IMG/VR virus record: IMGVR_UViG_3300025921_000693
Span: 1 to 36,102 of that record
DNA from: a virus
DNA: 36,102 nucleotides
Reading direction: 5' to 3' (one strand)
Shown here: in pieces, positions 32,140 to 35,653 of the stretch
Layout: the number at the start of each line of letters is the position of its first letter
Position numbering within the stretch: position 1 is the first letter of the stretch
The notes under the pieces: generated by a model
Database searches by the model: none
What the model was told of the DNA's origin: nothing
Seen by the model: the letters and a program-made list of their open reading frames with translations, nothing else
Translations under genes and position numbers: made by a program

Positions 32140-32513
32140 TTCAGTACTAGTTCCTCTAGCCTCTTAATCTCCCGCGCCATTTCAAGGAAAGTGTCGAGGT
32201 ATATCACTACCTTCGTCTCGCCCATAGGTTCATTTGTTTGCCTAAAGACCAAGACAGGCTCTCTCCCTAGGGACATGAGTTTTTTCGTCTGCTTCCACCA
32301 CTCGGGAATGCAGAGTTTGGCGTGGTTCTTGCACTCGAACCCTACGTTTTGGCCCAAGACCATCATGGAAGTCCATATGTCTGCCTTCTCGGTGGTGCCA
32401 TTTCCGCTGCCGTGTGCGCGGTACGCCTTGAGATCAAGACCCTTTTCTCTAATTTGAGAGGCCACGTAGTCTTCGAGCACCTTTCCTTTAGCTATTGCTG
32501 ATTTTGGCTTCAT
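32136..32513 (-). CDS. PDDEXK-like nuclease, resolvase/VRR-type (125 aa)
   Basis: The core reads KGKVLEDYVASQIREKG near 9-25, then KADIWTS (Asp about 45), then VGFECKNH (Glu and Lys about 59-61), then a VLVFRQTN strand near 88-95. This is the E-D-ExK spacing of the PDDEXK fold, seen in Holliday-junction resolvases and VRR-type nucleases. It may act in replication, recombination or packaging of branched DNA. Distinguishing resolvase from restriction-like nuclease is not possible by eye. Confidence 0.65.
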   Translation of the reverse strand: MKPKSAIAKGKVLEDYVASQIREKGLDLKAYRAHGSGNGTTEKADIWTSMMVLGQNVGFECKNHAKLCIPEWWKQTKKLMSLGREPVLVFRQTNEPMGETKVVIYLDTFLEMAREIKRLEELVLK

Positions 32514-32836
32514 ATATTTCTTGCTTCTAGCTCCTTTAACCTCAAAAGTGATGAGATAGAGGAGGTCATCTTGTCTAGTCTTTTAAGGAGCATAGTCAGT
32601 CTCATAAGCTCTATACCGTCCTCTGTACCTTCATATGCCCTATCTGCGCTCTTATCGCTCTTTACTGCCTCCCTGAGTTCATTCCACACCACAGGGCGGC
32701 GCGCCATGATGTTCTCAGCCTTCTCTGAGTAGAAGGAGTACCACCCTGCTATCTTCACTTTGTACTCTGCGAGGATATGGGGTGAGAGATTTCCCGCTTG
32801 AAGGTCTTGGGCGATCTTAGTAAGTTCTTCGTTCAT
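32510..32836 (-). CDS. Hypothetical helical protein (108 aa)
   Basis: All-helical pattern with SPHILAEYKVKIAGWYSFYS, a central NIMARRPVVWNEL and a C-terminal LSLLRLKELEARN-type coiled coil. It resembles small phage proteins near recombination genes, but no family is secured. Four-base overlap with the nuclease gene. Confidence 0.5.
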   Translation of the reverse strand: MNEELTKIAQDLQAGNLSPHILAEYKVKIAGWYSFYSEKAENIMARRPVVWNELREAVKSDKSADRAYEGTEDGIELMRLTMLLKRLDKMTSSISSLLRLKELEARNI

Positions 32837-33075: not shown

Positions 33076-33284
33076 TTCAATGTACTAGTTACTAATTTCA
33101 CCTCTGGGATAGAGCGTAGGCAGTTCTCTATCGCCTCGGCTACTGATTCCCCTATTCCTATGTGGCCGCGCCACTCTGCTGCGTACCTTATTTCGGAACA
33201 GTCAATAATCCTCCAGTCCATACCAAAGCAGCCGCCACGCTCCAATTTATGATCTATAACCTTTTTTAAGAGCTGTATCTTCAT
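33072..33284 (-). CDS. Hypothetical protein (70 aa)
   Basis: Contains GGCFGMDWRIIDCSEIRY with two Cys and EWRGHIGIGESVAEAIENCL with a third. A small alpha/beta fold is likely. Overlaps the next gene by ATGA. Function unknown. Confidence 0.5.
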   Translation of the reverse strand: MKIQLLKKVIDHKLERGGCFGMDWRIIDCSEIRYAAEWRGHIGIGESVAEAIENCLRSIPEVKLVTSTLK

Positions 33285-33598
33285 TTGAACTTTGTTATGT
33301 CGATATTGAACTTCACCCCATTCCCCTTACACACCTTTGACTTGCACCTCACCCTTGTTCTATCCCTGTTGTAGTAGATCCTGTGAGAGCAATAGGGACA
33401 AATCATTTCTCTCACCGCGCGGCCTATGTCTGGTTCAAAGAGGACAGGAAGAGCAGGAAGGAGCTTCACATCTCCCATAAGAGCCTTAAAGCGGTCCAGA
33501 GAGGATGAGAGGTGGTTTACCCTCGTTCTCCCCACTTCCATTACTCCTCCGCGGGTTTCCTCTGCTACGTCTACTACTACTGGCTTGTTAATGTTCAT
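33281..33598 (-). CDS. Zinc-ribbon protein (105 aa)
   Basis: The C-terminal third carries CPYC (residues about 68-71) and CKSKVC (about 85-90), a zinc ribbon. The N-terminal part has EVGRTRVNHLSSSLDRFKAL and VLFEPDIGRAVREM, helices that might bind protein or DNA. It is the first protein gene after the large RNA region and has no strong ribosome site. Confidence 0.55.
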   Translation of the reverse strand: MNINKPVVVDVAEETRGGVMEVGRTRVNHLSSSLDRFKALMGDVKLLPALPVLFEPDIGRAVREMICPYCSHRIYYNRDRTRVRCKSKVCKGNGVKFNIDITKFK

Positions 33599-33640
33599 AA
33601 TCTGTTGTCTTATTTCTTGTGAAGATGCTTCTCGGGCCTT

Positions 33641-34800
33641 CCGTCAAAGGGTGGGGATCTATGGAGTTCAGACTGAGTAACCTCTAGGGATGAATACTCT
33701 GTATGGTTTGATACGAGTATTTGAGCCTTTTAGATGAGAATTGATGGCGCGCCGCCCTCTCGCTTCCTCCTTTGTCTGCTCCCGTCAAAGCCCCTAGCGT
33801 TACCCTGAACTCATGCCCCGTTTGACGGCCGGGGAACACACCCGGCGGCTGAACGAGGCACAAATCCCTGAGAGGTGCTGGTTAAACGCCGATATGCAGT
33901 CGCGTCTAGCGGGTGCATTCCCGTGCTACTTTCGTAGTATTTACGTCGGCTTTTAATCAACACCCCTCGTTTACCGTTGTTTTTAGGTGGTGGTAAGATC
34001 CCAACCTGTCCGAACATTGTCTTAGAGCCTCTTTACCCAGCACCCCGCGGCACACTTTGGCTGAGTAAAACTTCCCTAAGCCAGATGAACTGGGTAAGTG
34101 ATTGCGGGAACCTATAAGGACTCTTTCAAGTTCGCGCGCCTCACGGCTAACGCCCTCCAACAATCACTTACTCAATTCACCTTTGAAGATGAGCCTGTGG
34201 TGCGGGACCTGCCGCGGCAGGCAGACGTGGTTGCGTATGCTCACGTCTCGGGTAACAAACCCGCCCCACTGACTCACCTTCAGAGAGACACCCCCCGCCA
34301 TAATCCTCACGCGCGCTCCTCGTTCGCTTTTCGCCTTACGAGGGCAGTGGCGAGACGCTGGTTGCCGACGCCCGCCTAGGCTTAGAGATTGATTGTTGGA
34401 TTATGGAGGCGATGCCCCTCTTGTAGCGGGCAGAGACCCCAGTTCCATTGGCGGGAGTGACCCGACCACAATGTAAGTTACGAACTTCTAACTGGGATTT
34501 CTGCCAACTACACTTCCTATAGATGTGCAGAGCCGTGGCCCTAACGCGATGCGCGTGCGTTAGGTAAACCAGCTACTAACTGGAACCACGGTTCTACACA
34601 CCTATTAAGAGAGGCGGGGAGTGAATGAGGCGACCAGATACTTGTATTTGTTGTCGCACCCACCTCTGGCTGGGTTTTGCACCTCATTCTTTCCCCGTCC
34701 CTCTATATGTAATGATCTGTAGAGCGTTTTGTGGTTTTTGTCGCTCGCTTAGCAGATAGGGATTGCCTACCGCCGCGTATTATCTAGCTTTGTCTATCCT
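33641..34800 (-). ncRNA. Probable giant structured RNA, about 1.1 kb
   Basis: No credible coding frame exists, yet many long inverted repeats nest without conflict. 33641-33648 pairs 33821-33828, 33664-33671 pairs 33805-33812, 33684-33689 pairs 33792-33797, 33693-33704 pairs 33711-33721, and 33874-33886 pairs 33952-33964. Further helices are 34088-34104 with 34161-34177 (15 of 17), 34298-34306 with 34398-34406, 34429-34444 with 34490-34505, 34524-34538 with 34586-34600, and 34610-34630 with 34682-34704. The minus strand is chosen because neighbours are minus, a CTAC-GAAA-GTAG tetraloop appears there, loops are A-rich, and my hand count over 33661-34704 gives about 25% A, 29% G, 25% C, 21% U, like a structural RNA. 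Not tRNA, rRNA, tmRNA or RNase P. Size and phage context recall GOLLD and ROOL RNAs, but no sequence match is claimed. Confidence 0.75.
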
Positions 34801-34826
34801 TTAGGGGCGATAGTCGTTCCATGTTT

Positions 34827-35147
34827 TCAGTTTCCTATGAGGGAAAGCTGTTTTACGTTCCTGTCGTGATTCACCTCCCTAGCGAGCGTTGTAAGCTCGT
34901 AGGACTGCTCCCTCACCACTTTCTTCTCCTCATGCCCCGCTACCTGTACATCCTTGTTCTCGTTCTGTACAAGGCGGAATACCCTGTCATACGAGAGCCA
35001 ATCGCGTGCAATATCATCTACGTTGTTCCAGTTGCATACTGAGTATTTCTCTTGGAGCATGGCTCTTATTGCGCCGTGCCTGTCTGAGCGCATCCATGTG
35101 TACCTGCGGAGGTTAGCCAGTATGTGATCGTAGATGGTGGTAGTCAT
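34827..35147 (-). CDS. Hypothetical protein (106 aa)
   Basis: Residues about 4-45 (YDHILANLRRYTWMRSD, AMLQEKYSVCNWNNVDDI) suggest a compact helical domain. The tail is charged (HEEKKVVREQSYELTTL). The ATG at 35147 forms a TAATG overlap with the preceding stop, which is why the longer frame is rejected. It ends 26 bases before the large RNA region. Function unknown. Confidence 0.55.
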   Translation of the reverse strand: MTTTIYDHILANLRRYTWMRSDRHGAIRAMLQEKYSVCNWNNVDDIARDWLSYDRVFRLVQNENKDVQVAGHEEKKVVREQSYELTTLAREVNHDRNVKQLSLIGN

Positions 35148-35653
35148 TAGAATGGGATTTCTTGGCTCTGATTGAGGAAGTATTTCCTCCACTCCTCGAT
35201 CTTGTCCTTAATTGCCCTATCAAGTTCTGGCTCTCCGAGGATAGGGTCTTCAGATAATCTCTTTGAGTAGAAGGCAATGACGATGTTTACCGCGTCTCTC
35301 TGCGCCGCCGCTTCCTTGATGTGGTTAGCCTTGTTCTCCTGCGCGGTTTCTATCTGCTCCGCCTTCCTCTCCTGTGCGGCCTTCATGCCGTAGTTAGGGC
35401 CGCGCTCAGGCTTTGGGGTTGAGGCGTAGAAGGACTTATACCCCTTAGGGTTGGTGTAGATTCGTCCTACGATCTTCGCGCCCGGCATTATGGAATCAAA
35501 GCCCGGGAACTCCTTGTTCTCCTTGTCGTACTTGTAGATGGTTACCTTGTCTGTGGTGACGCCTCCTGCACTCATCGTGCACTCAAGGGCAGGCTTGCCA
35601 AAAGCCTCTTTCTTCTCAAGCCAGTCAATCGTGTATTCTAGTGTTGGATTCAT
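35147..35653 (-). CDS. Protein with OB-like N-terminal region (168 aa)
   Basis: The first 75 residues alternate beta strands (YTIDWLEKKEAF, KVTIYKYDKENKEFPGFD, KIVGRIYTNPKGYKSFYAS), which could be an OB-type ssDNA-binding fold. Residues about 80-125 are a Gln/Glu/Lys/Ala helix. The C-terminal tail ends IPF after a helix, like the acidic or hydrophobic tips of SSB proteins, though not acidic. The start at 35653 is preferred because GGAGAGG lies nine bases before it. Role in replication is suspected, not shown. Confidence 0.5.
   Translation of the reverse strand: MNPTLEYTIDWLEKKEAFGKPALECTMSAGGVTTDKVTIYKYDKENKEFPGFDSIMPGAKIVGRIYTNPKGYKSFYASTPKPERGPNYGMKAAQERKAEQIETAQENKANHIKEAAAQRDAVNIVIAFYSKRLSEDPILGEPELDRAIKDKIEEWRKYFLNQSQEIPF

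Follow-up and report, generated by a model that had tools for sequence, protein, structure and literature searches.

The window, i.e. the whole stretch of 36,102 bases analysed here, is a virus record in which nearly all likely genes lie on the minus strand, among them those of the major head protein, the terminase large subunit, an SU10-like portal protein, Dam and a C5 methylase. Its longest inter-gene gap (33599-34826, 1,228 nt) contains a candidate RNA on the same strand as the called genes. The first-pass annotation had seen no believable protein in this interval, and this holds: the open reading frames of the gap are chance-sized (no longer than 93 aa) and matched nothing in Pfam and PHROG searches, and recoding of stops as sense codons opened no long frame. 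A search for a sigma-70-like promoter and a minus-strand terminator gave no match.

Folding strength, strand and boundaries

The core of the gap (33981-34790, 810 nt) folds on the minus strand with -363.7 kcal/mol, compared to -273.9 +/- 7.0 in shuffled sequences (z -12.8), and none of the 60 shuffles matched this energy. The plus strand of the same core gave z -7.8 (60 shuffles), so that the energy is well under that of shuffles and more so on one strand, as is looked for in a structured non-coding RNA gene. For a longer minus-strand stretch (33600-34599, 1,000 nt) the values were -428.8 kcal/mol and -336.9 +/- 7.6 in shuffles. A comparison of the strands on a 1-kb stretch (z -7.1 and -7.6) used 12 shuffles, too few for a stable standard deviation, and is superseded by the 60-shuffle test on the core. 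When the whole minus strand was scanned in 239 segments, only four, spanning 34051-34800, scored below -4 (-5.6 to -9.2). The remaining long gaps of the genome are approximately shuffle-like, the largest departure being that of the second-longest gap (265-1006), whose minus strand is moderately folded (z -3.9, 14 shuffles).

The strand signal is unevenly distributed among the predicted arms, which are listed in Table 1. For H4-H7 the plus-strand stability is much lower (z -8.8 on the minus and -2.8 on the plus strand), and H4 and H7 fold better than chance on the minus strand only, whereas H1-H3 do not discriminate between strands. Shuffle-level folding in the leader (34778-34826) and in the tail (33599-33650) gives the structured unit sharp ends. 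The boundaries assigned earlier (33641-34800) proved nearly exact; by the data, one end lies at about 33650 and the other at 34777-34790. The feature is real and unusual; the earlier claim of a giant structured minus-strand RNA finds strong support in the folding energy, in the preference for one strand and in the sharp boundaries, and on the folding models the element is very probably a structured RNA.

Predicted architecture

The long inverted repeats described in the first-pass annotation are present and nest in a single architecture, with pair probabilities of 0.9-1.0 for most arms. Their strands are 20-27 nt long (34083-34109/34156-34182, 34608-34630/34682-34704, 34422-34444/34490-34512, 34519-34538/34586-34605, and others). 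The window RNA has nine arms that reach 15 bp or more, compared to 0-6 in shuffles (mean about 2.4) and 0-2 in coding controls of equal length. The anatomy was derived from pair probabilities together with the minimum-energy fold (MFE), and its base pairs are predicted ones. In this layout a 5' domain closed by P1 comprises a small A-rich hairpin and the arms H1-H7; it is followed by H8 and then by the 3' domain. Neighbouring arms of the H1-H7 series are separated by only 1-6 nt. In most arms about 18-24 bp are formed, broken by single mismatches, and the majority of heads are forked into two hairpins. Palindromic stretches are present, e.g. CCUGCCGCGGCAGG in H5 and GCCUAGGC in H4, and the hairpin with the GAAA loop noticed earlier on the minus strand was found at about 33927-33938, inside the head of H8.

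Table 1. Predicted features of the candidate RNA and its flanking genes (window coordinates; p, pair probability; z, folding energy relative to shuffles)
Feature	Position	Strand	Basis or remark
Upstream flanking gene	34827-35192	-	121 aa; no family
Candidate giant structured RNA, whole, ~1.1 kb	33650-34790	-	folding tests; flanks shuffle-like
P1, 5' strand, closing the multi-arm 5' domain	34747-34777	-	MFE; inner 14 bp mean p 0.81
Small hairpin, 5 bp, 15-nt A-rich loop	34722-34746	-	p 0.98
Arm H1	34608-34704	-	inverted repeat, pair probability; z -4.9
Arm H2, head forked	34519-34605	-	20 bp p 0.98; z -7.2
Arm H3, head forked, two 1x1 mismatches	34422-34512	-	21 bp p 0.98; z -6.0
Arm H4, head forked	34283-34420	-	22 bp p 0.99; z -2.1 minus, +0.1 plus
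Arm H5, head forked, 14-nt palindrome CCTGCCGCGGCAGG	34185-34281	-	20 bp p 0.98
Arm H6, head forked	34083-34182	-	21 bp p 0.99; z -9.0
Arm H7	34021-34080	-	7+11 bp p 0.99; z -3.3 minus, +0.3 plus
P1, 3' strand	33985-34015	-	MFE and pair probabilities
Arm H8, CTACGAAAGTAG hairpin in head	33870-33968	-	21 bp p 0.97
3' domain	33654-33868	-	p 0.87-1.0; z -4.2
3' domain, closing pair GGGATTT/AGATCCC	within 33654-33868	-	
3' domain, hairpin H9	33815-33859	-	
3' domain, interrupted 20-bp stem	33792-33812/33664-33689	-	
Downstream flanking gene	33281-33598	-	105 aa; no family above threshold

Known families, relatives and RNAs of similar build

A search of the 4,227 Rfam models revealed no family for the window RNA at the gathering threshold or at E-values up to 10, only noise from miRNA-precursor hairpins. 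The models without a match in this range include GOLLD (with its conserved 3' half), ROOL, OLE, HEARO, group I and II introns, tmRNA and rRNA; a tRNA/tmRNA search of the window was also negative. The first-pass annotation had left a choice between a divergent GOLLD or ROOL and a new class; the Rfam run gives neither GOLLD nor ROOL, and a putative new class would now be the likelier of the two. At the DNA level no relatives were found among INPHARED phages or PLSDB plasmids, all matches in 50 contigs with terminase relatives were chance-like, and four contigs with relatives of the PDDEXK-like gene contained none. Searches with the flanking proteins in IMG/VR found no relatives. Exact 17-mer scans gave six chance matches and zero matches, respectively, an 18-mer gave two matches in GTDB genomes, not above chance expectation, and covariance models of H8 and H5 recovered only the window itself. 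Since no known RNA family matched and no relative was found, the element seems to be a giant phage RNA of a new kind. Elsewhere in the window, 25 bases (32693-32717) match the RNA at 88%, antisense to the ORF 32510-32836 (E 0.07), probably by chance.

GOLLD and ROOL, two kinds of large RNA from phages with functions still unknown, assemble into cages made of RNA alone; GOLLD is universally conserved in its 3' half but poorly in its 5' half, some GOLLD linkers contain a tRNA-like piece, and ROOL is rich in pseudoknots (PMC12286853). Like GOLLD, which often exceeds 800 nt, the window RNA is giant (about 1.1 kb), ornate and phage-borne (on a contig that encodes the major head protein and a terminase), and has a GAAA loop, but it is larger, has long abutting arms, and is accompanied by neither a tRNA in the window nor an Rfam match. 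The GOLLD family is further marked by a cage that is a homo-14-mer. With ROOL the window RNA shares the character of a large phage RNA without a known protein partner, whereas the match to the Rfam model is missing and conserved pseudoknots and kissing loops are features of ROOL. With its long, nearly uninterrupted arms the window RNA looks closer to dsRNA than GOLLD and ROOL do, both of which are rich in pseudoknots. In phage ICP1 the most abundant transcript is an ORF-less RNA of about 800 nt (PMC7567579), which is likewise a large phage RNA without a family in a gap of about 1 kb between genes. In the same test, however, the ICP1 gap is weakly folded (z -2.4) and lacks the many long arms, which leaves the window RNA by far the more structured of the two. 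All Rfam scores of the ICP1 gap are sub-threshold, hence it is nothing exceptional for such an RNA to be missing from Rfam; what is exceptional in the window RNA is how strongly it folds.

Contigs for comparison were reached via the terminase and the PDDEXK-like gene and then scanned for folding, which revealed further long structured non-coding gaps. The contigs were chosen for strong folding, so that these RNAs are no independent confirmation of the window RNA. Their sequences do not resemble it beyond chance, k-mers common to eight structured phage gaps show little or no excess over shuffles, and the likeness is one of build alone. The G052 contig (IMGVR_UViG_3300037231_000079; L121 8891-9593, plus strand, which is its gene strand) carries a 0.71-kb orphan multi-arm RNA with z -11.1 for this stretch and values of -11 to -14 overall, comprising a hairpin and a four-arm ring in which neighbouring arms lie 0-2 nt apart. 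As in the window, this RNA lies between same-strand genes and has a closing stem and abutting arms with complex heads, and the contig encodes a PDDEXK-like gene with 61% identity to that of the window; on the other hand, the sequence similarity of the two RNAs is not above chance and the ring has four arms instead of seven. The G052 RNA adjoins a gene with YGDAQVYGNA-type repeats. In G051, G053 and G054 the scan found no such RNA, at a cut-off that also missed the G052 RNA, later shown by a whole-gap test.

In G024, a relative of the window phage, a stretch of about 0.7 kb (L088 18495-19185, minus strand, again the gene strand) forms several arms of 15 bp or more; z is -7.2 for this stretch, which takes in some coding ends, and -5.6 when only the gap is folded. 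Within this giant RNA (L088 18640-18720, minus strand; also in L129) we observed a circularly permuted tRNA/tmRNA-like element, in which the T-arm and the 3' acceptor strand (CGCTCCC-ACA) directly precede the matching 5' acceptor strand and the D-arm. It scores 21.7 bits against beta_tmRNA (E 6e-4, below gathering); an adjacent arm has a second T-arm-like loop, and GAGGTTGTAAyGTC is common to two arms. A tRNA-like piece in a giant RNA is a further likeness to GOLLD, by way of this relative.

Shorter structured gaps occur in G040, G048, G028 and elsewhere. A unit of about 330 nt with a 21-bp closing stem lies upstream of the terminase on the same strand in G048 (L102 15990-16400, minus), and a very stable 290-nt gap (L043 1152-1441, plus; z -7.8) separates the terminase directly from the next large gene. 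An 870-nt gap with a 41-bp arm (L105 4325-5194, G050) is better folded on the strand that does not carry the flanking genes. Several candidates were rejected. The stretch CTAGGCGGGCGT, common to the window and G028, was taken as chance because its structural contexts differ between the two. A minus-strand stretch in G026 (L090 481-1320) seemed more structured, but encodes a protein in which GIxAG-type repeats follow one another at length; in folding scans the DNA repeats of this gene pass for RNA structure. The gap pair L063/L064 contains a small Cys-rich ORF.

Proposed role and alternative explanations

The reading we favor, with a probability of just under one half (about 0.48), is that of a free-standing non-coding phage RNA of about 1.1 kb that works as a large self-folding particle similar to GOLLD and ROOL, being a member of neither. 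Provided that the element is a structured RNA, the odds for such a particle, argued from analogy, appear even. The RNA would be transcribed from the minus strand together with the surrounding genes; in the folding model, P1 would close a multi-way junction, and seven arms of about 20 bp, each abutting the next, would extend from it as a star. Like GOLLD and ROOL, it would act as RNA and not as message, possibly as a compact nuclease-resistant particle, and the forked heads and the palindromic stretches of H5 and H4 may engage in loop-loop contacts within or between copies. The particle might then hold or shield a cargo or a host factor and so serve the lytic cycle. The particle and cargo steps are drawn purely by analogy, and we infer transcription, stability, oligomer formation through the head loops and binding of cargo or host factor.

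A rather improbable alternative is an array of the dsRNA type, i.e. imperfect hairpins of about 90 nt that are cut by RNase III-like enzymes into small RNAs, or that serve as a decoy for a host defence sensing dsRNA or RNA. Eight consecutive hairpins of 60-140 nt, most of them with stems of about 20-24 bp and 1x1 mismatches, agree with this idea, and all the noise matches in Rfam are miRNA-precursor hairpins. However, P1 closes the tightly spaced arms in one domain, in the manner of a built junction rather than a string, a decoy would not need forked heads, and the genome itself offers just the single weak 25-nt antisense match. We regard as unlikely a long cis-acting leader, i.e. an untranslated mRNA part controlling the downstream genes from the 105-aa ORF onward. 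Two same-strand genes do directly flank the RNA, which ends about 50 nt before the ORF 33281-33598, but with about 1.1 kb and nine arms it far exceeds the known cis-acting leaders, and the RNAs of similar build in G052 and G024 precede other genes.

That the inverted repeats act as DNA, in a replication origin, a packaging site or a cruciform, is quite unlikely: the plus strand is also well folded, as inverted repeats always cause, and a strand-neutral count of G.U versus A.C oppositions in the repeats (11:7) shows no significant asymmetry, but H4-H7 fold far better as minus-strand RNA, and the interval has a GC content of 0.51-0.55 with no AT-rich stretch. Very unlikely is a divergent GOLLD or ROOL beyond the reach of the Rfam models, for which size, phage setting and the GAAA hairpin would speak, together with the poor conservation of the GOLLD 5' half; neither family appeared at E-values up to 10, even though the 3' half of GOLLD is universally conserved (PMC12286853). 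Functionless decayed mobile or repeat DNA is equally hard to believe, since the inverted repeats that mobile elements commonly carry contrast here with arms that differ from each other in sequence and jointly build one domain (z -12.8).

The self-folding particle, our preferred reading, bears on a class of molecules whose role in phages is unsettled. Outside the ribosome, very few RNAs of comparable size and intricacy are known. Being compact and accessible to synthesis, the window RNA lends itself to cryo-EM and to RNA-seq of infection. A 1.1-kb RNA with nine very stable arms that family models do not see, together with orphans of similar build, suggests that much of the class escapes searches by sequence. 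As a more doubtful extension, phages of this and neighbouring groups may possess a type of giant RNA whose defining trait is its architecture, a tight multi-way junction with long forked arms, and whose sequence turns over too fast for family models; the window would then hold the largest example found here, with GOLLD and ROOL as two islands in a wider, mostly invisible realm of phage RNA particles.
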